DNA of 64,000 nucleotides. Source: Campylobacter concisus. GTDB taxonomy: Bacteria; Campylobacterota; Campylobacteria; Campylobacterales; Campylobacteraceae. The position numbers and the translations under genes were made by a program. A model generated the notes under the pieces. It worked only from the letters and a program-made list of their open reading frames with translations, ran no database searches and was not told the origin of the DNA. Position 1 is the first letter of the stretch; each line of letters begins with the position of its first letter. Where the stretch lies: contig NZ_JAAKZC010000002.1 in the NCBI RefSeq assembly GCF_015230015.1, forward strand, positions 62,001-126,000, given 5' to 3'. Shown piece after piece: positions 10,305 to 34,279 of the stretch.

Positions 10305-13130
10305 TTATGCCCTTTCTATGCGGCAAAGACCGCCTTTTGTTTCTGGAATTTGAGTGTTGATATCATATCCGTAGTTTGTTACGGTATTTGCGCTCTCGCC
10401 AACCGCAAATGGCAAAGTTCCTTCTGGGAAATTTCCAGTCATATCAACACCTTGCATATATCCAGCCCAGTGGAATGGCAAGAAGATCATATCAGGCTTG
10501 ACCGATGGCACGATCCTTGCACGAACCTTGATCTTGGTACCCTCAGGTGAATGAACCCAAACAAAATCCCAATTTTTAATGCCATGTTTAGCCGCTAGCT
10601 CTGGGTGGATGTCAGCAAACATCTCAGGCGTAATGCGTGATAGATACTTACTAGCACGCGTCTCCATACCAGCACCGCTGAAATTTACGAGACGAGCTGT
10701 AATTAAGTTGATAGGGAATTCTTTTGAGAAGTCTTTACTTTGTTGCAAGCTTTCAAATTTAGTATCAACGCGGTATTGTTTTGCTTTATCTTTAAAGCTT
10801 GGATACTTCTTGGCTAGATCTGGTCTTGGTGAGTGGATCGGCTCTCTGTGTTGAGGGATCTGATCAGCAAATGTCCAAACGATAGTTCTAGCACGTGCAT
10901 TGCCATATGGAGCGATGTTTTTCTCCAAGCATTTTGTTGCTATGATATTACTATCATCAGTTGACCAGCTAGCTCCGATTCTTGCTTTTTCATCATCAGT
11001 TAGTGTGATGCCTAAAATTTTCTCGATATTGTCTTTTTTGATCTCAGGATATCCACCATTTATAGATGAACCAACTGGCGCTGAGCCTTCAGCTGCTAGC
11101 TGGCTAACACCGTTGTGCTCTAAACCAAAGCGGTTTCTAAAGCCCATTCCACCTTCGCGAACTGATTTATGTGTATCATAAAGTATTGGGCTACCTGGGT
11201 GATTTTCTGTCCAGCATGGCCATGGAAGTCCGTAGTATTCGCCTTCAACAGGAGTGCCAGGCTTGCCAAGAGATGTTACTTCATCAAATTTATCCCAGTT
11301 CTCTTGGTGGCGTTTCAAGCGCTCAGGTGTCCAGCCAGTCATACCGATAGTTTTTATAATGTTTGCTATCTCGTGAGTAGCAGCTTCTGGCCACTCTATC
11401 TTACCATCAGCGCCCCTTATAGTGCGAGTTAGTTCGTCATAAAAGCCTATACGTTTAGCTAGTTCAAACAACAACTCATGATCTGGTATGCTCTCATAGA
11501 GTGGTTTGCACACTTGGCTTCTCCATTGACCACTTCTGTTTGTAGCTACGACTGTACCGCTACCCTCAAACTGCGTTGCAGCAGGAAGTAGATAAACATC
11601 ATCTTTTTTATTTGTTATAACGGCAGCGTCATTTACAAACGGATCTACACAAACAAGTAACTCAAGTGCATCAAGACCTTCTTGAACCTTTGCTTGTTGC
11701 GCAGTAGATGTTATGCCGTTACCTATAACTACAAGAGCTTTTAGACTATCTCCTGCATTATCGATTGCATCATTACCATCTTTACCATTTAGCGTACCAG
11801 CCCACCAGCGTGCAAGTGAAAATCCTGGCTTAAACATCCACTCAGGCTTGATAAAATTCTTTTGCAACCACTCGAAATCAACCTTCCACATTTTTGCAAA
11901 ATATTTCCAGCTTCCTTCATTTTTAGGGTAATAACCAGGTAGGTTATCTGGTAAATTTGCCATATCAGTTGCACCTTGAACGTTATCGTGGCCTCTTAGG
12001 ATGTTACATCCGCCACCACTTACGCCCATGTTGCCAAGCACTAGTTGCAAGATCGGAGCTATACGAGTGTTTGAGCTACCTATTGTGTGCTGAGTTAGAC
12101 CCATCGCCCAAACGACTGAGCCAGGGCGGTTTTTAGCATAGACTTCTGTGATCTCTTTAAGAGTTGCAGCTGGGACTCCAGTCACATCTTCAACGACTTC
12201 AGGTGTCCATTTTGCAGCTTCTTCACGAATCAGATCCATACCATAAACACGGTCATCAATAAATTTCTTATCTTCCCAGCCATTTTCGAAGATGAGATTC
12301 ATCATGCCATATACAAAAGGTATATCCGTTCCTGGACGAATTTGTGCGAAATAATCAGCCTTTGCCGCTGTTCTTGTATATCTTGGATCGATTACTATTA
12401 GCTTAGCGCCATTATTCTCTTTTGCCTTTAAAAAGTGTCTAAAACCAACTGGGTGATTTACCGCTGGGTTTGATCCAATTATAAAGATAGACTTTGCGTT
12501 TTGGATATCTCCAAGGTGATTTGTCATAGCTCCATAACCCCAAGTATTCGCCACACCGGCGACTGTAGAGCTGTGTCAAAGACGTGCTTGGTGATCTAGG
12601 TTGTTTGTCCCAAACATCGCAACAAATTTGCTTATATAATAGCTTTGCTCGTTGCAGTCTTTTGCTGATCCTAAGAACATAACTTGCTCTGGGTTTTTCT
12701 CGCGGTAAGCTTTTAGTTTTGCACCGATCTCATCGAGCGCTTGCGTCATAGAGATGCGTTGCCACTTGCCACCAACTTTTTTCATCGGATATTTTACACG
12801 GCAGTGTGAGCGCACCATATCGATAACGTCTGCTCCTTTACAGCAGTGACCACCAGCACTTACTGGGTGATCTTGCGCTACTTCTTGACGCACCCAAACT
12901 CCATTTTCTACCTCAGCTAACACTCCACATCCTACAGAGCAAACCGTACAGACAGTTTTTACTATTTTTGAGTCTGGAAATGGGTTTGCCATCTCTTGTG
13001 CTGTCGCGCTTCTTGTGACATTGCTCGCTGCAAAGCCGGCCGCGCCACTAGCGCCTGCTAATGCAGCCATTTTTAAAAACGATCTACGGCCGATGTTGTT
13101 TGGCGTAGCGTTTAGTCTAGCTTCAGACAT
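10305..13130 (-). CDS. fdhA: Selenocysteine formate dehydrogenase large subunit FdhA
   Basis: A 941-residue periplasmic formate dehydrogenase catalytic subunit read through an in-frame TGA at 12576-12578 (codon 185). The TGA lies in 'DHQARL-U-HSSTVAG', exactly where formate dehydrogenases carry the catalytic selenocysteine. Upstream are a twin-arginine signal 'RRSFLKMAAL' near residue 15 and a [4Fe-4S] motif 'CTVCSVGCG'. Downstream are molybdopterin-oxidoreductase motifs ('FIIGSNPAVNHPVG', 'GLTQHTIGSSN', 'RGHDNVQGATDM'). A small hairpin follows the TGA. The ATG at 13130 has AAAGGA at good spacing; the ATG two codons earlier overlaps that ribosome site. The enzyme oxidises formate and needs a Mo or W bis-MGD cofactor. 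It is followed by fdhB with a one-base gap. Confidence 0.95.
12549..12578 (-). promoter_or_regulatory. UGA selenocysteine codon and SECIS-like hairpin of fdhA
   Basis: On the minus strand the TGA (12576-12578) is followed 14 bases later by the hairpin CGCC-GGTGT-GGCG (12561-12549). Bacterial SECIS elements lie at this distance and present a G/U-containing loop to SelB. The stem is short, only four G-C pairs, but the spacing and loop fit. Confidence 0.65.
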
Positions 13131-17068: not shown

Positions 17069-19312
17069 ATGCAAAAGATTGTTCAAACAACCTGTCCGTA
17101 TTGCGGAACTGGTTGCGGCATAGACCTTATCGTAGAAAACGGTAGGATAGTCGATGCAAAGCCGACTGATAACCACCATGTAAATGATGGCGAGTTGTGC
17201 TTAAAAGGTATGTTTGGTTGGGAATTTGTAAATTCTCCAAAACGTTTAACAAAACCAATGATGAGAAAACTAAACGGAGAGTTTAACAAAGAGGGCAAAC
17301 TCGAAGAGGTTAGCTTTGAAGAGGTTTATGAATTTTTAGGAAAGACTTTTAAAAATAGCGTAGAAAAATATGGTCCAAGTTCTATCATGGGCTTTAGTTC
17401 AGCTCGTTCAAACAACGAAGACAACTATGTATTTCAAAAATTCTTTCGCGCTTTAGGAAGTAACAACGTAGATCACTGCGCTCGTCTTTGACACGCTCCA
17501 ACAGTGGCAGGTCTTGCCAGCACCCTTGGAAACGGAACAATGACAAACGATCTTGTTGAGTTTGCGACTGATACAGATGTATTTTTACTAATAGGCACAA
17601 ATACAAGCGAATGCCACCCGATCATCGCTATGCAGATGCAAAGAGGCCTAGAGCGTGGTGCAAAAATGATCGTCGTGGATCCAAAACGCACCGATATGGC
17701 TAAAAAAGCAGATATATTCTTGCAAATTCCAGTTGGCTCAAACATCAAAACACTAAACACAATGATGAACGTCATCATCTCTGAAAATTTACAAGATCGT
17801 GAATTTATCGAAAAATATGCAGAGGGTTTTGAGTATCTAAAAGAAGCCGTAAAAGACTTCACTCCTGAGAGATTTGAGCGTGAGACTGGTGTGAAAAAAG
17901 AGCTCATAATTGAGGCTGCTAGACTTTACGCTAAGGCCGGCAGTGCGGCTATTTGCTACACTATGGGTATCACTCAGTTTAGTGACGGTACATCAAATGT
18001 ATTCTCACTTTCAAATTTAGCTATCCTAACAGGAAATTTAGGTAAAAAAGGCGCTGGCGTAAACCCACTTCGTGGCCAAAACAACGTTCAAGGCTCATGC
18101 GATATGGGTGCACTACCTAACGTCATCCCAGCAGGCCCAGTAAATAGTGCCTACGCACAAGAGCAAGCTCGCAAAGTATGGCACTTCGAGCTTAATCCAG
18201 TGCCTGGCTTTAAACTAACATACGCACCTGATAAAATGGATAGCGGCGAGCTAAAAGTGCTTTACGTTTATGGCGAAAACCCTGTTATGAGTGACCCTTG
18301 GACAGAGCACTTTGTGCATGCTACACACCACCTAGACTGCTTTATCGTACAAGATCTATTCTTTACTGAAAGTGCTCAAAAAGCCGATGTCGTCTTACCT
18401 GCAGCTGGTTGGGGTGAGAAAGATGGAACATTTATCAACACATCTCGCCGCGTTCAAAGAACCAGAAAAGCAAGCGAGCCAGTAGGTGGCGTAGAGCCTG
18501 ACTGGAAAGTAGTTTGCAACATCGCAAAAGCTATGGGTCTTGAGGGATTTGACTTCTTAAGTGCAGAAGAGGTTTGGGACGAGCTTAGAAAACTAATGCC
18601 TAAATTTTTTGGTGGTATCAGCTACTATAGACTTGAAAAACTAGGTGGCATCAGCTGGCCATGCCCTGATGAAGATCACCCAGGCACACCTGATCTTTAT
18701 ACTGATCACAAATCAATGCTACCTGATGGTAAATTCCGCCTAGCTCCAGTACTTTACGCTGACGATAAAGATAAGCGTGCAAGCATGGAGGCTGAATTTA
18801 AAGCCAAAATGCATATACCTGATGGCTATCCATTAGGTTCAGGCGCAATGAGCGAAGTACCTGATGAGGTCTATCCTTGCCTATTTACAACAGGTAGAAA
18901 AGTTTATCACTACCACACAGGAACGATGACAAGAGAGTGCCCACCGCTAGAGTATGGTGCTGGCATCGAAGGTCCGCTAATAGAAGTAAGCCCTGATATC
19001 GCAAGAGAAAGAGAGCTAGAAGATGGCTGCTACGCAATGGTAGAGAACAAACGCGGCAGGATCGCAGCTAAACTTCGCGTAAATCCTGACCTTAGGGAGA
19101 GTACGATATTTACGACTTTCCACTATAGTGAGGCTGATGGCAATGAGCTCGCAAACGCACAAGACCACGACCCACTCTCAGGTATCACACCTCTTAAGAT
19201 CACTATAGCTAACATAAAAAAATTAAGCGAAGAAGAGTATATAGCATTTAGACAACAAAACGAGATGTCTATGCACTCTGAAAAACCTTATCTTTCACCT
19301 GTTAGATCATAA
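17069..19312 (+). CDS. fdhF: Selenocysteine formate dehydrogenase, FdhF type
   Basis: A 747-residue cytoplasmic-type formate dehydrogenase read through an in-frame TGA at 17489-17491 (codon 141; E. coli FdhF has Sec at 140). The N-terminus has the [4Fe-4S] motif 'CPYCGTGCG' from residue 9 and 'GELCLKGMFGWEF'. The Sec lies in 'DHCARL-U-HAPTVAG'. Molybdopterin-binding motifs follow: 'LIGTNTSECHPI', 'MGITQFSDGTSN', 'LRGQNNVQGSCDMG', 'YVYGENPVMSDPW'. No Tat signal is present, so it should stay in the cytoplasm. It has its own promoter and terminator, and no electron-transfer subunit is adjacent. A formate hydrogenlyase-type partner such as a hydrogenase-4 encoded elsewhere is an inference. Confidence 0.94.
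17489..17519 (+). promoter_or_regulatory. UGA selenocysteine codon and SECIS-like hairpin of fdhF
   Basis: The TGA at 17489-17491 is followed 13 bases later by the hairpin TGGCA-GGTCT-TGCCA (17505-17519). Position and the GGTCT loop closely resemble the apical part of the E. coli fdhF SECIS element, whose loop is AGGUCU. Confidence 0.8.
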
Positions 19313-19601: not shown

Positions 19602-20624
19602 TTAGCTGACTAAGGCAAAAGTTTTGGCTGTTTTTGAATTGTCACCAAAATGCTCAATATTCTTATGTAGTGGAATTTGCCTATATTTGCTAACGCCTCC
19701 TTTTTGCTTGGCAGTTTTAACATTTATAAATTTTATGCCATCTTCTTCGCCTACACTTTTGCTATCAAGTTGCCAAATTTCATTAAGCCTTAGCCCAGTA
19801 TGAAGAGCAAATATCATATAGTTTCGTAGATCAAGCCTTTTTGTGTCAAAGATTATCATTAGTTCATCCATAGTGAAATTATCTTTCGGCGACTTCTCGT
19901 CGGCTGAAATTTTAAAGGATGTAAGCATTTTAAAAGGATTGGTCGTGAGCTTGCCCATCTTTATGGCATACTCAAAGAGCCTTTTTGAGTAAGATGTGTA
20001 GTTGTTGATGGTCTTTTTGTTGAGCTTTTTGCTTGCTAGAGTTGTTTGAAAATTTTCAGCATCGCTGTAGCTAAACTCTTTACCTTGATGATCTTTAAAA
20101 AACTCATCCAAGAGCTTGCCAGTCTTAACATAATAGCCCTTGGTTTTATCGCTAGATTTTAGCTTTAAACATTCTGTTTGCACATATCTTTTAGCTACTG
20201 CTTCAAAAGATAGCGTCGTGGCTTCTTTTGGACTTAAAGATGTATCCAATAATGTTTTGAGCTCGTTTTCAAGCTTTTCTTCTAGTGCTACTAGATTATA
20301 AAATTTAGCTATCACCTCTTTTGAGAGCTCTTTATATTCGCTAACATCTAAAAATATGCCATTTTGTTTAATGCACCGCTCATTTTGTCTTTTAATGTTT
20401 ATCAAGGCTCTTAGGCTTTTAGAATTTGCATGCGTCGTGGTTATCTTTTTAGAAAGAGCTTCGTTGGCTGCGGCTTTTATAGAATTTGCCAGTCTTACTG
20501 CCTCATCTAGATCTTTTGTAAAGAGGCAAAATTTAACAGTTAGCTTTTTACCATCTTTAAGAGCGGTATCAAAAAAGTAAAAATTTGGTCTGTTGGGAAC
20601 CTTTGTGATCAATCTAGAGCTCAT
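19602..20624 (-). pseudogene. C-terminally truncated tyrosine recombinase (integrase)
   Basis: A 340-aa phage/island-type integrase. A SAM-like core-binding domain spans about residues 140-240 ('YVQTECLKLKSSDKTKGYY', 'TINNYTSYSKRLFEYA'). It is followed by the first catalytic arginine in 'ALHTGLRLNEIW' and the beta-hairpin lysine in 'VKTAKQKGG'. The frame then ends: the HxxR box and the catalytic tyrosine are missing, about 80 residues short, so the protein is probably inactive. Its start lies about 145 bases from the 3' end of tRNA-Ser(GCT), the usual place for an island integrase. No cargo remains between it and fdhF except a second decayed integrase fragment. Confidence 0.75.
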
Positions 20625-20637
20625 AGAATGATCCTAG

Positions 20638-20672
20638 TTTCTGTAACAAAAGTGCAAATTTTCTGTAACAAA
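20638..20672. repeat. Direct repeat upstream of the integrase
   Basis: TTTCTGTAACAAA occurs twice, at 20638-20650 and 20660-20672, a period of 22 bases or about two helical turns. It lies between the integrase start and tRNA-Ser, where arm-type integrase sites or an accessory-factor site would be expected. Confidence 0.55.
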
Positions 20673-20768
20673 GCTGATTTGTCTGAAATTTAGGACAAGA
20701 ATATCTGCTAATAAATGCAGTTAAAACACCGAAATTTAGGGGAGTTGGAAAGAAAAATATTGTATTGG

Positions 20769-20859
20769 TGGCGGACAGAGAGGGATTTGAACCCTCGAGC
20801 CCCGATTAAGAGCTGCACCCTTAGCAGGGGTGTGGTTTCAGCCGCTCACCCATCTGTCC
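20769..20859 (-). tRNA. tRNA-Ser (GCT)
   Basis: The minus strand folds as a class II tRNA with a long variable arm. The acceptor stem GGACAGA pairs with TCTGTCC, the discriminator is G and CCA is encoded. The anticodon loop CTGCTAA gives anticodon GCT, reading serine AGC/AGU codons. The T arm is GGGTTCAAATCCC. It is probably co-transcribed with the tRNA-Phe gene 31 bases upstream. Confidence 0.93.
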
Positions 20860-20890
20860 GTGTCCATGAAAAAAGTTTATGAAAAAGAAA

Positions 20891-20966
20891 TGGTGGTTAG
20901 AGGCAGAATCGAACTGCCGACACGCAGATTTTCAGTCTGCTGCTCTACCGACTGAGCTATCCAACC
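20891..20966 (-). tRNA. tRNA-Phe (GAA)
   Basis: A 76-base minus-strand tRNA. The acceptor GGTTGGA pairs with TCTAACC, the discriminator is A and CCA is encoded. The D arm is TAGCTCAGTCGGTAGAGC. The anticodon stem-loop CAGACTGAAAATCTG gives GAA for phenylalanine. It is the first tRNA of a two-tRNA unit. Confidence 0.95.
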
Positions 20967-21082: not shown

Positions 21083-24000
21083 TTAATGCAAATCAACTAC
21101 ACTTACATCTTTATCTATCTCGATAAAAAATGTTTGTGCGCTTGCTCCGCTACCATATACGCCTTTATAGACTTGATTTACAGCGTGACCACTTGCATCA
21201 ACTGCTACTTTGTTATATTCATCTCCGATAACGCTATGTTTTGAATTTAGCATAGTTACTTCATCATTTGTTGCTTGTGTAAAGGTAGTTCCTTTGCCTT
21301 TTAGGGCTACTATGTCATCGCTGTCGCCAAAGATTTTTAGCACTGTGTTGATATTTTCTGTGCCAGCCTTGCCCGTTATCTTTGTGACCCTTGAGTCTAT
21401 GATATCAAGCACGCTTTTGGCGTCTAGTCCTATAGAGACTGCTTGATCGCTTGTGCCTAGCTGTATGCGCTCAAAGCTTTCTAAATTTTTATCAAGGTTG
21501 GCTACTTTACTAAGATCAACATCATCTACAAAGATAAGTGTATCTATGCCACCTTTGCCATCCATTGGCTTGCCATTATAGACAAAGGCATCGTTTAGGT
21601 TGCTTCCTACGGTCTCTGTTGCGTCATGTTTTAACTGCACAATGTTGTTAAAATCGTTTGTATCATCTCCGTAGTATTTGCCATCTCTTTGGAGGATCTT
21701 GTGAAATTTATTTGTTTCATGGTCTATAAAGCCATTTTGCTCTAGTGCTTTTACGTAGTTATCGCTAAAAAGATGCGTGCCACTATCAGCAGAGCCTATG
21801 ATCTTATAGTTAGCGTCGCTCTCTCCAGTCTTTTTTATGGCAACATCTAAATTTACGTTTTCATTGTCATCAACATATTGGATATTTATTTTATGAAAGC
21901 CTTTTTCTAGGGTGAAATCTTGACTTTTATTGCGATCGCCAGCCCACGTATTATTTTTAAAACCTTGACCAGCTATGTCTATACTAAATGCAGACTCGTA
22001 TTGGCTAGCTTTTATGGTATATCTGCCTGTCTCTTTTATATATATCCAGCCCTGCATTCTCATTATGAGATCTGTTCCTACTGGCTCTGCTTCTAGTAGC
22101 ATGTAGTTTCCAGTGTGATTTACATTGTATTTTGTGCCAGTGTGGTCGGTATCGCTTGCGTTTGGTGAGTGACCGACCCTTGCCATATCTTTCATATTTA
22201 GCTCACCTTTTTTTGGTTTTGTTTCTGGGAGGTCCCAGTCTTTGCCTGATCTAAATGTCACTTCATTAAAAGTTGTGGTAGCACTTACGTTTGTCCAGTC
22301 AGCCCATTCAGTATAGTGATTTTTTACATGAAGCCCCCAGCCACCATTATAAGTTGGATTGTCTCCACCTTTTATCCAGCCTTTGCTTCTACAATAGTTG
22401 TTAAAATCTTTATTTGCACAGTCATAAAACCACATATCCACATCAAGACCGCTGTTTGAGATCATTGAGACGGTTTGGACTGACATATTGCCAGCGTCAT
22501 CTAGCCTTTTGACGATGAAATTTTTACTACCGCTGGTTAGTGTCGTTAGAAATTCGCCTTCATATTTTAGGTCAGTTAGTGGCAAAATTTGTTTAGATGA
22601 GTTATTTACATCGACGACATCTACTTTTATAGATGTCTTGTCGTCTGCTCTGTTTGGTGTGTCTGCCTCGCCACCAAAGGTTACTTTGTAGCTTTGACCT
22701 GAGCCAGACTTTGAGCCACCAAAGCTTGGCTCTTTTAGCCCATCTGGCGTCGCATCAAGATCAACTGTGATGGTTAAATTTTCACTTCGTCTTTCTGCGC
22801 CATTTTTATCTACATATGTGGCATCTATGACGTGGTGCGTCCTATCTAGCTTTACGCCAGCTGCTTCAAAGTCAGCTACTACGACATTATCTTTGATATT
22901 TGCGTAAAAGCTACTTTTTACAACGCCAGCTTCGTCTTTTACCTCAATGAGTACTTTGCCACCATCTCCACCTATGGCTGTGTCTGTATCTTTTTGTGCG
23001 ATACCAAATTTGATCATTGGACTTTCGTCATTTGTAAGAGCGATCTTGTAGTTTATGCGCTCGTTAAATGTATCGTCAAATTTACTTGTTGAGATGATGT
23101 GCTCGAAGTCTTTTTCGAGTAGGTATTTGGCTGGGTTGCTTGCTCCGCCATCTACTGAGGTAACTAGCTTAACGTCATCTACATAGTCAAGAATGCCAAA
23201 TTTAAATAATCTACCACTAGAAGAGCCAGTGAAAATTTTGGTGCCATCTCTTACAAGGTCTATATCAACAAGGGTTGGCTTGCTGGTATTTACTGGCACG
23301 TCTTTGAGCAAGAAACGACTGCCATTTACTAGCTGAGTATCTGTTGGGTCATCTTTATTTACTACTTTGATGTATTCATCTGTAAGTGTTTTGGTTTTGG
23401 CTTCATACTCGATATCTGGGTCTGGCTTTTTCTCGTATGTGGTTAGAGTTTCGCCTGGTTTTGCCTCTTTTATAATGTAGGTTTTTATCTCTTGTTTGTT
23501 TGTATTTGGATTTAGCACAGAGACTTTTAGCTCGTCGCCTACTTTAGCTGTGCTTGGGATAGAGGCTAGGACATCTGAACCTGTGATAGTGACGCCGTTT
23601 GTGCCGTCTATCAGCCCGTCGCCATCTATGTCTTTTATAAATTTAGCCTTTGGCTTGTCGTCAAAGACTATAAACTGGCTGTCAGTTGTGCCTTCGTTGC
23701 CAAACTGATCGATGACTGTTGTGTCTATGCTAGTTTTTGCACCATTTTTGATAGGCACATTGATCTTAAATTTTCCACCACTTGCATCTATCTCGTTGCC
23801 ATCAGGTGCTATGACCTTGCCATTTTCACCGATAGTAAATTCTTTTGTTTCTATGTTTCCATCTGGATTTGTTATGGCTACTCTTATCTTTTCGTTTGGT
23901 TTGCTTTGGCTTGGGATACTTATAGTTACTTCAGTTTTGTCGCTATCGTTGCCGTAACCATTTTCAAATGTGTCGATCTTGTTGTCGCTCTTGCCATCTG

Positions 24001-25873
24001 CATTTGGGAGGTTTTTGCTAAATTCTATCTTGGCTGATCTTGTAGGTGGCGTGGTGTCGGTGGCTGGAGTGTTTTCGTTAGTTTCTGTCGAGCCGTCATC
24101 TTTTTTGACCTCTGTTTTTATAGTAGCATTTTTACCCTCATTGATAGGTATTTTTACGTCAGGGACTACAAATTTACCATTTTGGATAGGTATAGGTGTG
24201 TGGTTTGGGTCATTTGGATCATAGACGCTTTTTTTATCAGGGCTTAGGACAAATTCTTTTTGCACCGGAGTTCCAGTGCCTGTATTTATCGTGACTTTTA
24301 CGCTCTCGCCTGGTTTCATGGTATTTGGTAAGTGGATATCTACGCTTGACTCGCCACTTTTTAGCTCGGATTTGCTGATAACGCCATCGTTATTAGTATC
24401 AGCGCTTAGTGTCGCCTCGGCTTTGTTGCTTATGGTGTTTGGCTTTTGCTTGATCGTGCCTTCGTTGCCAAAGCGGTCTATAAACTGAGTTTTGATCTCA
24501 GTGCCTGGCGTGATAGTGGCACCATTTGGCACATTAAATTCCATAGCACCTTTGCCATTTGGTTTTAGTGGATAGACATTGCCTGCTTCGTCGGTGGCGG
24601 TGTTGTTTTCTTTGTTTATGGTGTAAATTTTAGTGACTGAGTCGCCATTTGCGTCTGTGACGATAGACTTGATCTTATCGCCACTTTTCATATCGTCAGG
24701 CACTAGGAATTTCACATCAGTTTTTACAGAGTCCTCTCCTACGCCCATTTCGGTAGCATCTATCACGCCGTCGCCATTTTTGTCTATGCTAAGTGTCGCG
24801 CTTACTTTTGATGCTGGCGGAACGTCGTTTGTCTCAACATTTAAATTTGAACCACTTTCGTGTCCGTTTTTATCAACTAAATTTACAGCGATATCTATAG
24901 GCTTGCCATTTGGGATCTCGACATCTGGGATCTTTGCTTTGCCATTAGCAAGTGGCACTGAGATAAAAGTAGGTGCTGTTGGGGTTGAGGTGGGTGCTGG
25001 CACTGGCGATCCGTTATCATCTACTTGAATGAGTTCGCTACTTATAAGATCGATCTTGTATTTTAGAGTTTGCGAGCCACTTTTTATCTTGATGATATCG
25101 CCATCTTTTGCAGCTGGTGGCAAAGTGACAACCACAGGAGTGTAAAATTTATTCCATCTTTTTGTAGTTTCAGACGAAGCTAAAATTTCATTTTTGTCCA
25201 AAAGACCATCTTTGTTTGTGTCGGCATCCAGGAAAAATTTAGGGACATTGTCGATAAATGGCACACTTGGTTTTGTAGCTTGTGCTGGCGCACCTTTTAT
25301 AGTTGAGACTGGAGCGCTAAAGATATTTTCAAGATAGCTGACCGCACCTTTTACAGATGAGACTGAAGTGTTAAAGATATTTTCAAGATAGCTGACCGCA
25401 CCTTTTACAGATGAGACTGGAGCGTTAAAAAACTTTTCAGAGTTTATAATTTCACGTAGTGCGTGCTTTACGTTATCAAAGATATTTGTATAGTGACCGC
25501 TTTTGCTAAAGCCTGCATTATTTAGCGATGCTTGGCTAGATAAATTTGATCCGCCGTGGTGAATGTTGCTCTCATGTTCGCTATCTTCGTGTTTTGCATC
25601 TTTTTCATCTTTTTGTAAGCCAGGGATGACGAGCTCGCCGTTTTGCTCTGCAAAGACGTTTGTTGTCCTAAAAGTAGAGTTAAAGCCGATATTTGCGACC
25701 TCTCCATCATCAAAAACTATCCTTACTTTGGCATCGACAGCTGTTTTTATGATATCGCCTAAAAATATCTCATCGCCTTTGCGAAGCACTCTTGTGCTCC
25801 CATCTGGTGAGATGGCTATGACTTCGCCTACTATTTGTTTGACGATGGCTATTTTTAAGGCTACGATATGCAT
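21083..25873 (-). CDS. Giant surface protein A: retention-module adhesin with PA14-like domain
   Basis: A 1596-aa repeat protein. Residues 1-75 resemble the retention module of LapA-type adhesins ('GEVIAISPDGSTRVLRKGDE', 'VRIVFDDGEVANIGF'). A linker has 'SGHYTNIFD' near residue 125. An 18-residue repeat ('SSVKGAVSYLENIF') occupies about 145-200. Some five Ig-like repeats of about 120 residues follow to about 860, several opening with an EF-hand loop ('DTNKDGLLDKNE', 'DKNGDGVIDATE', 'DTNNDGVISKSE'). 'GLDVDMWFYDCANKDF' near 1144 leads a PA14-like region ('GWIYIKETGRYTIKAS' near 1274). A C-terminal module from about 1424 resembles type I secretion targets of large adhesins. It is probably exported by a type I system encoded elsewhere and held at the surface. 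It is the last of three related tandem genes. Confidence 0.78.
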   Translation of the reverse strand: MHIVALKIAIVKQIVGEVIAISPDGSTRVLRKGDEIFLGDIIKTAVDAKVRIVFDDGEVANIGFNSTFRTTNVFAEQNGELVIPGLQKDEKDAKHEDSEHESNIHHGGSNLSSQASLNNAGFSKSGHYTNIFDNVKHALREIINSEKFFNAPVSSVKGAVSYLENIFNTSVSSVKGAVSYLENIFSAPVSTIKGAPAQATKPSVPFIDNVPKFFLDADTNKDGLLDKNEILASSETTKRWNKFYTPVVVTLPPAAKDGDIIKIKSGSQTLKYKIDLISSELIQVDDNGSPVPAPTSTPTAPTFISVPLANGKAKIPDVEIPNGKPIDIAVNLVDKNGHESGSNLNVETNDVPPASKVSATLSIDKNGDGVIDATEMGVGEDSVKTDVKFLVPDDMKSGDKIKSIVTDANGDSVTKIYTINKENNTATDEAGNVYPLKPNGKGAMEFNVPNGATITPGTEIKTQFIDRFGNEGTIKQKPNTISNKAEATLSADTNNDGVISKSELKSGESSVDIHLPNTMKPGESVKVTINTGTGTPVQKEFVLSPDKKSVYDPNDPNHTPIPIQNGKFVVPDVKIPINEGKNATIKTEVKKDDGSTETNENTPATDTTPPTRSAKIEFSKNLPNADGKSDNKIDTFENGYGNDSDKTEVTISIPSQSKPNEKIRVAITNPDGNIETKEFTIGENGKVIAPDGNEIDASGGKFKINVPIKNGAKTSIDTTVIDQFGNEGTTDSQFIVFDDKPKAKFIKDIDGDGLIDGTNGVTITGSDVLASIPSTAKVGDELKVSVLNPNTNKQEIKTYIIKEAKPGETLTTYEKKPDPDIEYEAKTKTLTDEYIKVVNKDDPTDTQLVNGSRFLLKDVPVNTSKPTLVDIDLVRDGTKIFTGSSSGRLFKFGILDYVDDVKLVTSVDGGASNPAKYLLEKDFEHIISTSKFDDTFNERINYKIALTNDESPMIKFGIAQKDTDTAIGGDGGKVLIEVKDEAGVVKSSFYANIKDNVVVADFEAAGVKLDRTHHVIDATYVDKNGAERRSENLTITVDLDATPDGLKEPSFGGSKSGSGQSYKVTFGGEADTPNRADDKTSIKVDVVDVNNSSKQILPLTDLKYEGEFLTTLTSGSKNFIVKRLDDAGNMSVQTVSMISNSGLDVDMWFYDCANKDFNNYCRSKGWIKGGDNPTYNGGWGLHVKNHYTEWADWTNVSATTTFNEVTFRSGKDWDLPETKPKKGELNMKDMARVGHSPNASDTDHTGTKYNVNHTGNYMLLEAEPVGTDLIMRMQGWIYIKETGRYTIKASQYESAFSIDIAGQGFKNNTWAGDRNKSQDFTLEKGFHKINIQYVDDNENVNLDVAIKKTGESDANYKIIGSADSGTHLFSDNYVKALEQNGFIDHETNKFHKILQRDGKYYGDDTNDFNNIVQLKHDATETVGSNLNDAFVYNGKPMDGKGGIDTLIFVDDVDLSKVANLDKNLESFERIQLGTSDQAVSIGLDAKSVLDIIDSRVTKITGKAGTENINTVLKIFGDSDDIVALKGKGTTFTQATNDEVTMLNSKHSVIGDEYNKVAVDASGHAVNQVYKGVYGSGASAQTFFIEIDKDVSVVDLH
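25319..25426 (-). repeat. 54-bp tandem repeat inside surface protein A
   Basis: Two nearly identical 54-base units (25319-25372 and 25373-25426) differ at only a few positions, and a partial third unit lies at about 25290-25318. They encode an 18-residue repeat. The length is a multiple of three, so unit gain or loss would keep the frame. Confidence 0.85.
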
Positions 25874-26245
25874 TTTATCCCTTTGTGATATTTCTAAATT
25901 TATAAAGTTTATTTTATATCGACAAATTCCTTTAAAAGTTTATAGTTTTAAGATTAATTATTTTATTTAAGTTTTATATAAAAGCCTTGATATATTTATA
26001 ATTGATTAAATTTAGTTTTATTTGCCTTATTTTAGGTTATTTATAGATATTTCTTAGAGTAAAATTTATTTTAGTATATGATAAAAATTATTATCTATAA
26101 AGCATTATTTTTAGGGATGCTTATGAAATTTAAGCTAAATAGCACAAAAAAGCGGATTTTAGAGCATAATTTTTAAAATTTATGATTTTAGCTTAAATGT
26201 TCATTAAGCTAAGAAGTGACAGAAATTTCTTTAAATTTAAAAGAT
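25874..26245. other. AT-rich spacer between surface-protein genes A and B
   Basis: No credible gene is seen in these 372 bases. An inverted repeat TTAGCTTAA-N7-TTAAGCTAA at 26188-26212 lies 34 bases after the gene B stop on the minus strand and may be a weak terminator. Closer to gene A the minus strand has TATAAA-like boxes. The gene A ATG is preceded by AAAGGG at good spacing, so A may be transcribed from its own promoter. Confidence 0.5.
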
Positions 26246-27930
26246 TTAATGCACCAAATTTACTACACTTACATCTTTATCTATCTCGATAAAAAATGTT
26301 TGTGCGCCAGCTCCGCTGCCATATATGCCTTTATAGACTCGATTTACAGCGTGACCGCTACCATCAACTGCTACTTGGTTGTGTGTATCGCCTAAAGCGC
26401 TATGTTTTAAATTTAGTGCCGCTACTTCGCTGTCTGTTGCTTGCGCGAAGATAGTGCCTTTACCCTCTAATGCCACTTTGTCATTATTATCGCCTTTGAT
26501 TTTTAGCACGGTATTTACACTTTTTAAGCCACCATTTGTTACTTGTGCGTCTATGATATCAAGCACGCTTTTGGCATCCAGTCCTATCGAGACAGCCTGA
26601 GTGCTCTTGCTACCAAGCTGTAAAGTTTCAAAGCTCTTTAGTTTATCGTTTAGGTCAGCCACCCTGCTAAGATCGATATTTTCAGTAAAGATGAGCGTAT
26701 CAACGCCACCTTTTGCGTCTATCGGATCGCCGTCATAGATAAATTTATTATCTTTGTCATCTCCTTCGCGTGTAAATTTAACGCCTTTGTCTATCTCAAC
26801 GAAAAATGTTTTTGTGTTAGCTCCATCAGTGTATGTGCCCTTATAGACGTGATTTACCGCGTGATCCATGCCGTGTATCGTTGCATTTGCACTTGCATTG
26901 TAAGTTACATTGCTGTGGTTAGGGTAGGTTTTGCTACCGCTATTATCTGTGACTTCGACTTTATTAAATTCATCGCCCGCGACTTGACTATGCTTCCAGT
27001 TTAGCATCGTCACTTCCTCATCAGTTGCTTTTGAGAAGCTTCCTATGAGTTTTACCGCGTCACTTTCGTCGCCTGTTATTTTTAAGACTGTATTTATGCT
27101 TTTTGTGCCTTGTATCTCTTTTTTTGTGCCGCTTGTTTCGATGGTCGTGGCGGTCTCTTTTGAATCAACGATGTCAAGTATGTTTTTTGAATTTAAAGTG
27201 AGGGCAACCGCTTCATTATCTTTACCTAGTTGCAACCTCTCAAAGCTTTTTAGCTTATCTTTTACGTCTATGTTGCTAAGGTCGGTATTTGCTGTAAAGA
27301 TGAGCGTGTCTACTCCATCTTTTGCGTCTATAAGGTTGGTGGCATTATATGTAAAGGTGTCGTCGTAGTTGCGCTCTTGCGCTACGATCTTGACATTTTT
27401 GTCTATCTCAATAAAAAATGTCTTTAACTCGCCATCTTTTACGTATGTGCCTTTATAGATGTGATTTACTGCATATCCATTCGTATCTACTTCTACTTTG
27501 TTATAGCTATCCCCTATGGCTTTGCTATGCTTCCAGTTTAGTAAAGTTACCTCTTCTTTTGTTGCTAATTCAAATTTATTAACTCCAGAATTTATAAGTT
27601 TTACTATATCTCCATCCTTACCTGCTATCTTTAAAACTGTATTTACACTCTCTGTTCCAGGTATAGTTCTTAAGGTTGAGTATTCGCCCTCTGTTATCTT
27701 TGTCGTTTTTGAGTCTATGATGTCAAGAACGCTCTTTGCATTTAGCGCGATTGAAACGTTTTGGCTCTCTGTGCCTAGTTGCAGGCGTTCAAAGCTTTTT
27801 AGTTTATCTTTTAGATTATTTACTTCACTAAGGTCTATATCTTCAACAAATATCAGCTTATCTACGCCACCTTTTGCGTCTATATTCTTGCCGTTATAGA
27901 TAAAGACATCGTTTAGGTTGCTACCTTCAA
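26246..27930 (-). repeat. Three tandem copies of the C-terminal module in surface protein B
   Basis: Copies cover about 27370-27930, 26770-27369 and 26246-26769. Each encodes 'IDAK(G/D)GVD-LIF', then 'LKSFE-LQLG', 'S-LDI-DS', 'VNTVLKI-G', 'LN-KHS' and ends in 'FF-EIDK'. Boundaries are approximate and read from the translation. Only the last copy is at the natural C-terminus. Confidence 0.7.
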
Positions 27931-30900
27931 GAGCATCTGTGTTGTGTTTTAGATGTATTACTTTGTTAAAGTCATCCGCATCATCACCAAAATATTTTGC
28001 TGGTTTGCTTATATCTTTTTCTTGATTTACTAAACTTCTATATCCTTTTTTACCAGCTATAAGACCATCTTTTTCATCGCTAACATATCCTTTGTCATGT
28101 AGGGCTTTTACATAGCTATCACTAAAAAGGTGCGTGCCGCTTCCTTGTGAGCCTATGATTTTATAGTCGCTAGGGTTTTGTGAGCTTTTCTTTATCATTA
28201 TGTCTAAGAATGTATCTTCTGTCCTATCGACATAATCAACCTCTATCCTATAAAATCCTTTTTTTAGATTATAAGTATGAGTTTGTCCATGAGGACCATT
28301 ATCTCCTGAACCAAACCAATACGCCCACTTTCCAAAACTTTCATCTGCTATTTTGACATCTATCATGTCTTGATGGTGTCTTGCAGCTATATTATATCGA
28401 CCATCTTCTTTTATGTATATCCAACCTTTCATTTTCATGATCAGATCAGTTCCTACAGGCTCTGCTTCTTCAAGGACGTAGTTTCCTGTTTTGTTTAGGT
28501 TATAGTGTGCCCCAGTGTGATCGGTATCCTTTGCATATGGAGAGTGACCTACTTTTGCCATATCGTCCGTATTTAGCTCACCTTTGTGAGGTCTTGTTGA
28601 GCTTAATTGCCAGTCTTTACCTCCTTGAAAAGAAAGCTCATTATAAGTAGTAGTTGCACTAACGCCAGCCCACTCCATCCACTGTGTGTAGTGATTAGCT
28701 ACGTGGTATCCATATCCTGTTTTTTTATCATTAAGGTCTGCTCTAGAATTAGTTGTTACTTCTGGATATATATCCATAAATTCTCTATTTGTGCAGTCAA
28801 AAAACCACATATCAACATCAAGGCCTTTGTTTGCCACCATAGTTACGGTTTGAACAGCTAAATTTCCCGCATCATCTAGTCTTTCTACTATGTAGTTTTT
28901 GCTGCCAGTATTTTGTGCTACGTTAAAGCTTCCAGAGTAGCTTAAATTTCTATCAAGTGTCAGTGTCGTCTTCTCAGATGTCTCAGCGTCTATGACCTCT
29001 ACATCTTTTGATTTTTCATCGTGTGGATTGTTTGCAGCTTCGCCTTTGCCGCTAAAATTTATAGCGTAGTTGCCAGAGCTGTTTTTTATATTATCAAAGT
29101 CAGATTCTATTAGCTTATCAGGCTTTGAGTCAAGATCGACTGTGATAGTTAGGTTATCATCTCTTTGAGGCACGCCGTCAGTTCCCACGTAGGTAGCGTC
29201 TATGATGTGGTGAGTTCTATCTAGCTTTTTGCCAACCTTTTCAAAGTCTGCTATTACGGTGTTGTTTTCGATCTTAGCTATAAAGCTATCACTTACATTT
29301 GCGTTTTCATCTTTTATCTCTATTAGCACGTAGCCTTTGCCGTCACTTGTGGTATCGGGCTTATTTATACCAAATTTAATGTATGGCTGTTCGTCATTTG
29401 TAAGGGCGATGCTATAGTTTATCTTTTGGGTCGAATTTGACTCATACTGGCTTGTTGAGATGATATGCTCGTAGTCCTCTTCGTTTAGGTATTTTGCGGA
29501 GTGGATATCGGCATTATCTATCTTTGTAACAAGCTTTACGTCGTCTATATAGTCAAGCACGCCAAAGGCAAATAGCCTGCCACTTGAAGTGCCTGATATT
29601 GCACTCCCGTCGTCTTTTATAAGGGTCGCATCGACTAAGGTTGGGCGCTTGCTACTTACCGTCACGTCTGGTATGGTGATAGCGCCGTCACTTATCACTT
29701 TTATATCGCTCGGGTCTTTTTTGTTTATCATATGCACGCCATCATCGTCTAGGATGTAGCTCACGGTTGATTGTTTGTTGGTAAGCGGGTTTAGGATGCT
29801 TATCTTTAGTTCATCTTTTGGCACTGCGCTACTTGGGAGATAGACCTTTACATCAGAGGTCGTTATAGCTCCAGTGGTGTCATCTATGAGCCCATCTCCG
29901 TCAGCGTCTTTGACAAATTTCGCCACTGGGCTGTCGCTAAATTTTATCTCATTTGTGTCGCTCTCGCCTTTGTTGCCAGCCTTATCCATCATGGTCGTCG
30001 TTATGCTTGTTGTTTTGCCATGTTCTATTGGCACTGTGATCTTAAATTTACCATCATTTAGGGGCACTTCATTGTGATCAGGGGCGATTATCTTGCCGTT
30101 AGTGTATGTATAGACCTTGTGCGTTTTACTGCCGTCTGGATTTGTGACATCTATGGCTATCTTATCGCCTTCTTTTATCACGCTTGGGATTTTTATAGAC
30201 GCCTCAGTTTTTGTTGGGTCGCCGTCATTGTATCTGTTTTCTGAGGTATCTATCTTGCCATCTGGAGTTCCATTGTTATGCCCTAGGTCGCTATCAAAGC
30301 TTATCTTGGCTGATTTTACAGGTGGAGCTACTACGACGCTTGGGGTGGTTTGGTTGCTTGTGCCATTTGGTTTTGGCGTGCCATGCTCGTCATTAACCGT
30401 TGTATTTATAGATACACTTGAGCCAGGTGTCACTGGCACACTTACGCCCGGCACTTCAAATTTACCATTAACTATTGGTATAAATACGTTTGGGTGATTT
30501 TTATCATAAACGCTTGTGCCATCGTCGCTTACTACAAATTCTTTTGGCGAGCCACCTATGTTTATAGTGACGCTCTCTTTTGGCTTTATGGTGCGAGGTA
30601 AATTTATCTCAACCTTTGAAGTACCGTCACCTATCTCGTCGCTACTTATCAGCCCATCACCGTTTTTATCAGCTGTTAGCGTCACTTTGACGGTGTCACT
30701 TACGTTACTGCTTGGCGTAGTGCTTGTGGCTGAGACGTTGCCAAATTTATCAACTACGCCAGTTTCTATGCTGCTTCCTGCTGTGATGTTTGCGATATTT
30801 GGCACGCTAAAGCTAACTGCGCCATTTTCATCTGTCGTAAATGTATAGCTGTTGCCGTCCTCGTCAGTAGCTGTGCCATTTTCTTTATCTAGCGTAAATT

Positions 30901-32140
30901 TCTTCTCAACTGGCGGTTTGCCCGGCTCATTTAGCTTAAACGTGATCTTATCTCCAGTGCTAAGCTCGTCAGGCACTACAAATTTCATGCCGCTAGTTTG
31001 CGTGCCGCTGCCATATCCTAGCTCGGTCGCATCTATCACGCCGTCGCCATTTTTATCAAGATCAAGCGTGGCTGTCACTTTTGAAATGGCTGGCGTGTCG
31101 TTTAGCTCATAGGCAGTTGGCGGCGCGGTAAATGTCCTGCCACCAGTGGTGTATGAGCTTGTCACGGTCGTTTTGCCATGGTTTAAAATTTCAACTCCAG
31201 TGATCTCTGCTTTGCCATTTACGATAGGTATAGCAGGCGCTCCAGTAGGCATGCCGGTGCTATCAACTGGGATTAGCTCGTTTGTTATCGTATTTACTTT
31301 GTAGTTGCTAGTTTTGCCACCACCTTTCATGTTTGTCTTTATCGTGATGATGTCGCCATTTTTAGCAACGTCTGGGATATCAACGCCTATGCTTGTGATG
31401 ATCTTTTTGCCATCAGGAGTTTTTGGTAGTGAGTTTAGCTGCGCTCCTCCTAAAAAGCCCTTTTTCTCGCCAGTGTCGCTTGTGAGGTTGAAATTTAGCA
31501 CGATGTTTGGCTCTGGCGGTGTATAAGTGCCAGGATTTATAAATGTGTTGTTGATAGGAGGTACGTATGTGTCATAGTTTATGACGTTGTTATTGGTTGC
31601 ACTAGTATTTGACTCTAGTTTGTTAGACCCAGCGTATGAGATCCCGCCGATCTTAGCCTCGCCAACTGGCCATTTGACCTCGTCATGCCTAGCTTCAAGA
31701 GCGCGCAAACCTGTGTAAAAGTCGTAGATATTTGAGTAGTGGCCACCTAGTTCAAATTTGATGCCGCCACTACCCACTGAAGCAGAGTATTGCGATGATG
31801 AGCCGTGAGAAGATAGCTCTTGATGGGAGATTTGATCATCGTCATTTGCGTGTTCTTTGTGATTTTCAAGGATGTTTGCATTTTTTGGGATGACTAGCTC
31901 GCCCTTATGCTCAGCAAAGACATTTATAGTGTGAAATACCGAGCTAAAGCCGACATAAGCCTTTTCGCCGTCATCAAAAACAATGGTAAGGTTCGAGTTT
32001 TCGCTCGTTTTTATATCATCACCAAGGTAAATTTCATCGCCTTTGTGTAGCACCCTCATAGTGCCGTCCCTACTTATGGCGATGGCTTCACCCTTGATCT
32101 TTTTGATAACGCCGATCCTTATGGCGTCAAAATTTGGCAT
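26246..32140 (-). CDS. Giant surface protein B: retention-module adhesin with triplicated C-terminal module
   Basis: The longest gene of the window (1964 aa). It begins with a retention-module-like segment ('GEAIAISRDGTMRVLHKGDE', 'LTIVFDDGEKAYVGFSS'), then 'GGHYSNIYD' near residue 130. Ig-like repeats with EF-hand loops follow ('DKNGDGVIDATE', 'DKNGDGLISSDE', 'DADGDGLIDD'). 'GLDVDMWFFDCTNREF' near 1115 opens a PA14-like segment ('GWIYIKEDGRYNIAARHH' near 1250). The C-terminal module then occurs three times in tandem, starting near residues 1410, 1592 and 1797; each copy runs from 'IDAKGGVDKLIF'-type sequence to 'FFIEIDK'-type sequence. The ATG has AGGGATG upstream. It is the middle gene of three paralogues. 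It probably acts as an adhesin or matrix protein; no ligand is known. Confidence 0.78.
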   Translation of the reverse strand: MPNFDAIRIGVIKKIKGEAIAISRDGTMRVLHKGDEIYLGDDIKTSENSNLTIVFDDGEKAYVGFSSVFHTINVFAEHKGELVIPKNANILENHKEHANDDDQISHQELSSHGSSSQYSASVGSGGIKFELGGHYSNIYDFYTGLRALEARHDEVKWPVGEAKIGGISYAGSNKLESNTSATNNNVINYDTYVPPINNTFINPGTYTPPEPNIVLNFNLTSDTGEKKGFLGGAQLNSLPKTPDGKKIITSIGVDIPDVAKNGDIITIKTNMKGGGKTSNYKVNTITNELIPVDSTGMPTGAPAIPIVNGKAEITGVEILNHGKTTVTSSYTTGGRTFTAPPTAYELNDTPAISKVTATLDLDKNGDGVIDATELGYGSGTQTSGMKFVVPDELSTGDKITFKLNEPGKPPVEKKFTLDKENGTATDEDGNSYTFTTDENGAVSFSVPNIANITAGSSIETGVVDKFGNVSATSTTPSSNVSDTVKVTLTADKNGDGLISSDEIGDGTSKVEINLPRTIKPKESVTINIGGSPKEFVVSDDGTSVYDKNHPNVFIPIVNGKFEVPGVSVPVTPGSSVSINTTVNDEHGTPKPNGTSNQTTPSVVVAPPVKSAKISFDSDLGHNNGTPDGKIDTSENRYNDGDPTKTEASIKIPSVIKEGDKIAIDVTNPDGSKTHKVYTYTNGKIIAPDHNEVPLNDGKFKITVPIEHGKTTSITTTMMDKAGNKGESDTNEIKFSDSPVAKFVKDADGDGLIDDTTGAITTSDVKVYLPSSAVPKDELKISILNPLTNKQSTVSYILDDDGVHMINKKDPSDIKVISDGAITIPDVTVSSKRPTLVDATLIKDDGSAISGTSSGRLFAFGVLDYIDDVKLVTKIDNADIHSAKYLNEEDYEHIISTSQYESNSTQKINYSIALTNDEQPYIKFGINKPDTTSDGKGYVLIEIKDENANVSDSFIAKIENNTVIADFEKVGKKLDRTHHIIDATYVGTDGVPQRDDNLTITVDLDSKPDKLIESDFDNIKNSSGNYAINFSGKGEAANNPHDEKSKDVEVIDAETSEKTTLTLDRNLSYSGSFNVAQNTGSKNYIVERLDDAGNLAVQTVTMVANKGLDVDMWFFDCTNREFMDIYPEVTTNSRADLNDKKTGYGYHVANHYTQWMEWAGVSATTTYNELSFQGGKDWQLSSTRPHKGELNTDDMAKVGHSPYAKDTDHTGAHYNLNKTGNYVLEEAEPVGTDLIMKMKGWIYIKEDGRYNIAARHHQDMIDVKIADESFGKWAYWFGSGDNGPHGQTHTYNLKKGFYRIEVDYVDRTEDTFLDIMIKKSSQNPSDYKIIGSQGSGTHLFSDSYVKALHDKGYVSDEKDGLIAGKKGYRSLVNQEKDISKPAKYFGDDADDFNKVIHLKHNTDALEGSNLNDVFIYNGKNIDAKGGVDKLIFVEDIDLSEVNNLKDKLKSFERLQLGTESQNVSIALNAKSVLDIIDSKTTKITEGEYSTLRTIPGTESVNTVLKIAGKDGDIVKLINSGVNKFELATKEEVTLLNWKHSKAIGDSYNKVEVDTNGYAVNHIYKGTYVKDGELKTFFIEIDKNVKIVAQERNYDDTFTYNATNLIDAKDGVDTLIFTANTDLSNIDVKDKLKSFERLQLGKDNEAVALTLNSKNILDIVDSKETATTIETSGTKKEIQGTKSINTVLKITGDESDAVKLIGSFSKATDEEVTMLNWKHSQVAGDEFNKVEVTDNSGSKTYPNHSNVTYNASANATIHGMDHAVNHVYKGTYTDGANTKTFFVEIDKGVKFTREGDDKDNKFIYDGDPIDAKGGVDTLIFTENIDLSRVADLNDKLKSFETLQLGSKSTQAVSIGLDAKSVLDIIDAQVTNGGLKSVNTVLKIKGDNNDKVALEGKGTIFAQATDSEVAALNLKHSALGDTHNQVAVDGSGHAVNRVYKGIYGSGAGAQTFFIEIDKDVSVVNLVH

Positions 32141-32245
32141 TTCTTCATCCCTGTAAAATGTGTGTATTGTAATATCGGAAAATCTCTTAAAATTTATATA
32201 GTTTTGTGGCTTTTTGGGATGAGGTCTTTAGCTCTTGTAAATTTA

Positions 32246-34279
32246 CTACATCACCTCGACATGCACGTTTTTATCTATCTCTACGAAAAATGTCTGCCCA
32301 GCGTTGTTTTCGCCTTTATAGACTTGATTGACCGCTTCGCCCCCAACTTCATCGAGTTTGTTATAACCAGCTCCGATTACGCTATTTTTTGCATTTAGCG
32401 CGGCTACTTCGCCGCTTGTGGCCTTTACGAAATTTCCAACTAGCTGCACCACATCGTCACTATCGCCTGAAATTTTAAGGATAGTATTTAGGCTCTCTAA
32501 GCCATCGGGTCCTTTGGTAGGGTTGGAGTCTATCATATCGCTTATGTTTTGCCCATTTAGCTTTAGCTTCACAGCCTTTGTGTGATCAAGTTCGATGCGC
32601 TCAAAGCTCTCAAGGCGCTTATCTAGCTCACTTATCTTTGTTAGATCCACGTTTTGGGTAAAAACTAGCGTATCTATGCCACCTTTTGCGTCGATATCGT
32701 GTGAGTTAAAGATGAATTTGTCATCAAGGTTGCTACCAACGTCTTTTGTACCTTCAAATTTTAGGTCAAATGGCTTATCAAAATCGCTTGCATTATCGCC
32801 AAATTTTGTACCATTTATTTCTTTTGCCTTATAAAATGTATCGCTCTCTTTTGTCACAAGGCCCTTTTGAGCAAGAGCCTCCATGTAGGCATCACTTACT
32901 AGAGTAACGCCTGTTTTATCAAATGTATAATTATCATCTTCACTTGTCCCTGTTATCCTTGTGGCAACTCTTTTTGACATATATGGCGTGTCATCAACTA
33001 CTATAAAAGTTACTTTATAAAAACCACTCTCACTTAAGTGTAGCTCATTTGTCTTTACATAGTTTACGCCTTCTTCGTCCGCGCCTTTTGCAGTAGTAAA
33101 ACCTCTGTTGTATATGGCTGTGTCATTAAAGATAAATTTTATTATCTCTCTTGATTTTACCTCGTAAAAAGCAAATTCTTTAACGAGTGTATGATCTTTG
33201 ATATGTATCCAGCCCTCTGCCTTTAGTATCAAGCCGTCGCTCCCACTCGGCTTTGACTCATTTAAAAGATAGTGTCCATTCGATTTCTGTGGCAAACCAT
33301 AGCTACCAAAGCTATTACCAAGTCTATCTACATCATATTTTGCACGTGGGTCTTGCCCTATCCTGATAAGCTCTTCTGGCTTTAGATCTGGATCAGATAG
33401 TATTTTGTATTTTTTTAGATCTTCATTTGTACCTTGTCTTTTAAAAGATAATGGATTATATGCTGTGCCAGTGCGCCATCTAAGCTCACTAAAAGTGCTT
33501 GAGGCGCTAACCTTATGCTCGTCCATCCACTCTTCATATGCGTATTTGTTGTTTGAGTGCCAATCTATCTCTTTGTTGTTGTTTCTAGCGATATTATAAA
33601 ACCACATATCTGCGTCTAGTCCTCTGTTTGTGACATTTAACACATTTATGGTATCTATAAATGGCTCTTCTTTTGGCTCTGCAGCGCCGCCACTTTTTTC
33701 TACTAGCGTGCTAGAGGATAGACTTGAAGCGCCTGAGACGCTTTTTAGCTCGCTTGGCTGGGCACTACTTATATTTGAGTCTAACCCTTTATTTACAACC
33801 ATTATTTTATTGGTGGAATCTATAAATGATTCTTCGGTGGCGCTACCTTTTTCTACCTGCGTGCTTGAAGCGCCTGAGACGCTTTTTGTCTGAGCTGGCT
33901 GGGTGCTACTTATATTTGGCTCTAAAGATCTGTACTGGTTGTAAATTTGATGGATATTTGCGCTGTGACCACTTGTGGTAAAACTAGCCGCGCTTAGAGA
34001 TATGCCATCTCTTACTGATGATCCGTATCCACTCTCACTCTTTTCTTCTGCTGGTTTTGTTGAAATTTTTAAAATATCATCTAAATTTATGCTTTGATGA
34101 GCGTTTAAATTTATCTGCTCGCCACCTTCTAGAGTGATCTTGGCATCTAAATTTTTAGTAAAAATTTTCTGATCAGGATAAATTTCGTCGCCATCTTTTA
34201 GCATTTTTATGCTTCCATCTTGGCTTATGATGTAAATTTCGCCCTGAGTATCTTTTATTATCAATTTTTTATTTTTCAT
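32246..34279 (-). CDS. Surface protein C: short paralogue without Ig-like repeats
   Basis: A 677-aa protein with the same ends as A and B. The N-terminal segment resembles a retention module ('GEIYIISQDGSIKMLKDGDE', 'AKITLEGGEQINLNAHQS') and is followed by 'SGHSANIHQIY' near residue 107. A linker contains two copies of a roughly 50-residue Ser-rich repeat ('KSVSGASS', 'VVNKGLDS' and 'NVTNRGLDAD'). 'GLDADMWFYNIARNN' near 225 starts the shared lectin-like region with 'GWIHIKDHTLVKEFAFYE', and one C-terminal module runs from about 510 to the end ('FFVEIDKNVHVEVM'). The Ig/EF-hand array is missing. It is the first of the three genes on the minus strand, 105 bases upstream of B. Confidence 0.75.
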   Translation of the reverse strand: MKNKKLIIKDTQGEIYIISQDGSIKMLKDGDEIYPDQKIFTKNLDAKITLEGGEQINLNAHQSINLDDILKISTKPAEEKSESGYGSSVRDGISLSAASFTTSGHSANIHQIYNQYRSLEPNISSTQPAQTKSVSGASSTQVEKGSATEESFIDSTNKIMVVNKGLDSNISSAQPSELKSVSGASSLSSSTLVEKSGGAAEPKEEPFIDTINVLNVTNRGLDADMWFYNIARNNNKEIDWHSNNKYAYEEWMDEHKVSASSTFSELRWRTGTAYNPLSFKRQGTNEDLKKYKILSDPDLKPEELIRIGQDPRAKYDVDRLGNSFGSYGLPQKSNGHYLLNESKPSGSDGLILKAEGWIHIKDHTLVKEFAFYEVKSREIIKFIFNDTAIYNRGFTTAKGADEEGVNYVKTNELHLSESGFYKVTFIVVDDTPYMSKRVATRITGTSEDDNYTFDKTGVTLVSDAYMEALAQKGLVTKESDTFYKAKEINGTKFGDNASDFDKPFDLKFEGTKDVGSNLDDKFIFNSHDIDAKGGIDTLVFTQNVDLTKISELDKRLESFERIELDHTKAVKLKLNGQNISDMIDSNPTKGPDGLESLNTILKISGDSDDVVQLVGNFVKATSGEVAALNAKNSVIGAGYNKLDEVGGEAVNQVYKGENNAGQTFFVEIDKNVHVEVM

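Follow-up and report, generated by a model that had tools for sequence, protein, structure and literature searches.

LapA-type adhesins are regarded as being under reversible control, with c-di-GMP deciding whether LapG cuts the protein. LapA of Pseudomonas fluorescens and the retention-module RTX adhesins recognized by the NF033682 profile combine a retention beta-domain, a repeat stalk and a C-terminal type I export module, and LapBCE, LapD and LapG are encoded in the genome. LapG substrates carry a targeting helix together with a [T/A/P]AAG site (PMC13090378), and a di-Ala to di-Arg mutation in the adhesins of Vibrio cholerae abolishes cleavage by LapG (PMC6890996). In V. cholerae, as here, more than one retention-module adhesin depends on a single LapD/LapG pair (PMC6890996); both of the V. 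cholerae adhesins, FrhA and CraA, have LapG sites and are cleaved. The Dvh system of Desulfovibrio vulgaris is Lap-like but lies outside the gammaproteobacteria (PMC13090378); its adhesins keep the helix and AAG, and its receptor is an HD-GYP protein.

The three Campylobacter concisus proteins described here, A, B and C, share the listed features with LapA, except that C has no repeat stalk. Unlike LapA and the V. cholerae adhesins, however, they have neither the targeting helix nor [T/A/P]AAG; their genes are far from the exporter operon, and one exporter appears to serve 12 proteins. In contrast to the Dvh system, the C. concisus receptor is a classical LapD. The closest solved folds for both ends of the proteins come from MpAFP/MpIBP of Marinomonas primoryensis (5ix9 for anchoring and 6x7z for PA14), although in A-C no ice-binding domain was identified, the Asp-Asp pair of PA14 is not evident and the stalk is far shorter.

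Three retention-module proteins in tandem

The genome belongs to C. concisus sensu lato, an inhabitant of the gut and mouth. Within the window, by which we mean the whole stretch of 64,000 nucleotides that was analysed, the A-B-C cluster is flanked by murD and by a tRNA-Phe/tRNA-Ser pair with a tyrosine integrase gene. The preliminary description had reported three tandem paralogues of 1596, 1964 and 677 aa, which agrees exactly with the coordinates and lengths of the open reading frames. The genes and their main domains are as follows.

21083..25873, minus strand: adhesin A, open reading frame of 1596 aa (retention_LapA NF033682, E 2.7e-12)
25658..25861, minus strand: retention (membrane-anchoring) beta-domain of A, residues 5-72 (AF2, Foldseek, hmmsearch)
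22469..25246, minus strand: Ig-like/bacterial adhesin repeats of A with DxDxDG calcium loops, residues ~210-1135 (EF-hand-type loop matches; repeated 'D.N.DG.I...E')
21674..22450, minus strand: PA14/GLEYA-like domain of A, residues 1142-1400 (Foldseek; weak Pfam GLEYA)
21086..21640, minus strand: type I export-like C-terminal module of A (common to B, C and C2_5915 of the same genome, E 1.3e-11)
26246..32140, minus strand: adhesin B, open reading frame of 1964 aa (NF033682, E 1.4e-10)
31922..32128, minus strand: retention beta-domain of B, residues 5-73 (NF033682 profile and N-terminal alignment)
28001..28825, minus strand: PA14-like domain of B (alignments A1 and A2)
26249..27955, minus strand: three tandem export-like C-terminal modules of B (alignment)
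32246..34279, minus strand: adhesin C, open reading frame of 677 aa without a repeat array (NF033682, E 1.1e-6)
34070..34273, minus strand: retention beta-domain of C, residues 3-70 (NF033682 profile and N-terminal alignment)
32780..33622, minus strand: PA14-like domain of C (38% identity to A; alignment A1)
32249..32767, minus strand: export-like C-terminal module of C (alignment)

A and B are 47% identical along their whole length and both carry the calcium-loop repeats. A and C have only the ends in common, with 38% identity in the C-terminal ~490 aa and 30% in the N-terminal part; the earlier reading of C as a short stalkless form without the Ig array fits this arrangement, the array being absent and both ends kept.

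Retention-like N-termini had been proposed for all three proteins, and the NCBIfam LapA retention module, NF033682, does match each of them (47.1, 41.5 and 28.9 bits for A, B and C), although in this protein scan all three scores fall under the curated whole-protein cut-off of 50 bits; in a whole-genome scan A reached 51.3 bits, above the cut-off. The AF2 model of residues 1-141 of A contains a confident beta-domain at residues 5-72 (pLDDT 72-88) followed by a disordered stretch. The best Foldseek match of this domain among solved structures is 5ix9 (E 1.1e-4, TM 0.84), the cell-surface anchoring domain of M. primoryensis, which is also matched by hmmsearch (E 1e-6). The AF2 models were built on shallow alignments and have pTM values of 0.45 and 0.52.

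The GLD[VA]DMWF motif, noted earlier together with a PA14-like region, is present in all three proteins (at residue 1142 in A, 1106 in B and 220 in C). The model of this region in A, which is of modest confidence, matched the PA14 sugar-binding domain of M. primoryensis in Foldseek (6x7z, E 1.1e-5) and then the Epa1/Flo yeast lectins, and thus agrees with the PA14 assignment. A plain Pfam search returned weak EF-hand and GLEYA matches only, and a sequence search of the PDB with alignment A1, which covers the PA14-like region, returned no match. The position expected for the cis Asp-Asp pair of the sugar site, read by eye, is YES in A and HQD in B; the calcium-binding pair of PA14 lectins is not evident, and sugar binding can be suggested only with reserve.

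The last ~170 residues form a module that is also found at the C-terminus of C2_5915, a canonical site-bearing retention protein of the same genome. The module is strongly shared with only this one site-bearing sibling; it is consistent with a type I export signal, as had been suggested.

Several features of the genomic setting are worth recording. The tRNA-Phe/tRNA-Ser pair and tyrosine integrase gene adjoin the cluster (window 19602-20966; compare L062:16066-17999 and L068:469-4163), and relatives hold apparent filamentous-prophage genes at this place. Among strains the adhesin cluster occupies two different chromosomal sites. Frameshifts were noted at loci L064, L068 and L181: they interrupt gene B in the relatives G025 and G016, in the latter close to a poly-A tract, and lapE in G005, and could be real, phase-variable or assembly errors. 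Elsewhere in the window, two formate dehydrogenase-like genes contain an in-frame TGA (12576-12578, minus strand, and 17489-17491, plus strand), and in both of them the protein continues through the TGA without interruption and contains 'ARLUH', which is what selenocysteine would give.

The LapG site in the cluster and in sibling proteins

The genome encodes 12 retention-module proteins: A, B, C, eight other full-size proteins and one mini-protein of 170 aa. All eight of the other full-size proteins carry, with small variations, the pattern 'LQ.A(I/L)L.G....LE[ED][TS]AAGG', a Gly-rich stretch and 'DG[VI]SL...F..GGH.SN[VI]', so that the mini-protein is the only one of the nine others without a LapG site. 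The helix and [TS]AAG were likewise present in every one of 40 retention proteins in a sample drawn from 32 further Campylobacter genomes. Of this pattern, only the post-site segment is left in A, B and C, which have a polar Ser/His/Glu/Lys-rich linker at the position of the helix and site.

25538..25621, minus strand: polar Ser/His/Glu/Lys-rich linker of A, residues 85-112, where canonical proteins have the LapG targeting helix and AAG (alignment and site profile; predicted disordered)
25481..25534, minus strand: conserved post-site segment of A, residues 114-131, QASLNNAGFSKSGHYTNI (matches the canonical 'DGVSL...F..GGH.SN[VI]' after the LapG site)
31727..31786, minus strand: post-site segment of B, SASVGSGGIKFELGGHYSNI (alignment and site profile)
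33953..34006, minus strand: post-site segment of C, GISLSAASFTTSGHSANI (compared with the canonical 'GVSLAAASFAQGGHESNV')

No helix is predicted by AF2 in the linker of A. A fourth type, D, of about 1570-1584 aa and encoded at a separate locus, is likewise without helix and site. A profile of the helix and site was trained on half of the canonical proteins and tested on the held-out half, which scored 30.6-53.8 bits; shuffled sequences reached at most 2.9 bits, and the 27 proteins of types A-D scored -1.1 or were unreported, so that the profile found the helix and LapG site in none of the 27. The earlier remark that a LapG-type di-alanine site is missing is thereby confirmed, the absence being significant, and at the level of sequence the loss of the site in A-D is clear. 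The '(S/G)GHxxN[IV]' motif, first placed near residues 107-130, is present, although its positions were slightly off: it lies at residue 125 in A, 132 in B and 103 in C. It corresponds to the conserved stretch that immediately follows the LapG site of ordinary retention-module adhesins, a connection that the preliminary description had not made.

The 170-aa mini-protein (G000:C1:13549-14061; L023, L151) consists of a retention domain followed by a helix, an acidic linker and a C-terminal strand. The helix resembles the LapG targeting helix but AAG is absent, and the C-terminal strand has the look of an export signal. Each of the 27 C. concisus-complex genomes searched encodes a full-length orthologue, and none of the other Campylobacter genomes searched does; another family has a mini retention protein that looks independent (L184). 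The mini-protein could be a channel plug or a LapG decoy.

The lap operon and a proposed mode of action

The preliminary description had noted that the cluster is without a local exporter. This holds locally, but the exporter is not missing from the genome: LapB, LapC, LapE, LapD and LapG are all encoded by one complete lap operon on contig C8, and a missing exporter, which had been named in advance as evidence against the reading, is therefore rejected. The operon encodes in order TolC/LapE (TIGR01844, 226 bits), LapG (NF045674, 228 bits), LapD (LapD_MoxY_N, GGDEF and EAL domains), LapB (TIGR03375, 939 bits), LapC (TIGR01843, 397 bits), a DUF5416 protein, a LuxR-type regulator and a second BTLCP protease. 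A genome search found no type I ABC/HlyD pair over the cut-off besides that of the lap operon; by elimination, therefore, the 12 retention-module proteins would share this single exporter.

We propose that A-C are probably PA14-lectin-like adhesins that are exported and anchored by the Lap system, tipped by the PA14-like domain and not released by LapG. All three would be exported through the one Lap type I system, whose genes lie on a different contig; the N-terminal beta-domain would stay in the periplasm and plug the outer-membrane channel LapE, thereby anchoring them. The repeat array, absent in C, would form the stalk, while the likely ligand-binding tip would be the PA14-like domain, which lies close to the C-terminus. 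Without the targeting helix and [TS]AAG, LapG would be unable to release A-C at low c-di-GMP, unlike the eight full-size siblings, and the three proteins are therefore expected to remain on the surface independently of the LapD/LapG switch and of the c-di-GMP level. Lap export, anchoring, resistance to LapG, permanence and ligand binding are what we infer for A-C, which on their sequences may be permanent rather than releasable grips.

The main alternative, though an unlikely one, is that the second BTLCP protease, or some other protease, cuts within the Ser/His-rich linker and so releases A-C, which would then form a second, separately controlled class of adhesins. This LapG-like protease (L004:18435-19061 on G000:C8, 208 aa) has an intact C-H-D triad, lies inside the lap operon and clearly differs from LapG (87.5 vs 228 bits on NF045674). 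This old paralogue has been retained in the lap operon of several Campylobacter species, and 18 of 27 C. concisus-complex genomes do not have it. Each of the nine genomes with A/B/C-type genes encodes both proteases. However, the second protease is also found in nine genomes without A-C, and site-less type D proteins occur in genomes that have LapG but not the second protease. The co-occurrence is moreover confounded by ancestry, since it divides the C. concisus complex into two groups and may reflect one event. The link is therefore weak, and a role of the second BTLCP as a dedicated partner of A-C is not supported.

Recognition by LapG of a degenerate site, such as Ala-Ala in C or Asn-Asn-Ala-Gly in A, would make these proteins behave like their siblings. 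The Ala-Ala is kept in all six copies of C, and the LapG of V. cholerae accepts certain changes around Ala-Ala (PMC6890996). The Ala-Ala of C lies, however, in the post-site segment, and canonical proteins carry the same Ala-rich post-site segment in addition to TAAG, so it was rejected as a LapG site; in A, B and D an Ala-Ala is not conserved at this place, and these proteins have neither a targeting helix nor a profile score, and we regard this explanation as quite improbable. That the genes are relics, or encode unexported proteins with a non-functional retention domain, is the least credible alternative, for although two relatives (G016 and G025) have a frameshift in B, the reading frames of 677-1964 aa are intact in this genome, the N-terminus of A is 98-100% identical between strains, and the beta-domain and post-site segment are conserved in the 27 A-D proteins.

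Distribution and implications

For the PA14-like and C-terminal half, the named relatives are from C. concisus only, and among 299 genomes of the order this half was found in eight, all of one genus. The site-less A-D adhesins are largely confined to the C. concisus complex. A more distant homologue in genome G035 keeps both a TAAG site and a GGHYSNV motif, which fits a loss of the site in the A-D lineage. A tree of the PA14 and C-terminal region, in which the only homologue with a site (G035) has a long branch and to which the motif used brought no D-type rows, shows a pattern compatible with a single loss among other numbers of losses. C. concisus is not strictly alone in having site-less retention proteins, since outside the genus at least one giant retention protein with a 4111-aa frame (L182) and the mini retention protein of L184, both of other families, appear to have no site. 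Short NF033682 matches at L183 and L186, also outside the genus, were read as a different family and set aside.

Several more giant retention-module adhesins, these with LapG sites, are clustered at G000:C1:1-21563 (L023, L024). Related genomes encode up to 14 retention proteins each, with reading frames of up to 4763 aa. The literature that we searched contained no earlier description of a complete Lap system or of such a repertoire in C. concisus.

A broader and rather tentative picture is that of a two-tier Lap surface, in which LapG-releasable adhesins would stand beside lineage-specific, LapG-proof, lectin-like ones, both displayed by one exporter, and the second BTLCP or the universally conserved, retention-only mini-protein of 170-190 aa would add further control as an alternative cutter, channel plug or LapG decoy. 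C. concisus joins the bacteria with a complete Lap system, and a genome may encode as many as 14 retention proteins. With siblings that do and do not carry the cut site in one genome and served, as it appears, by one exporter, the purpose of release becomes testable, and this natural set of siblings makes it possible to ask whether some adhesins were never meant to let go.
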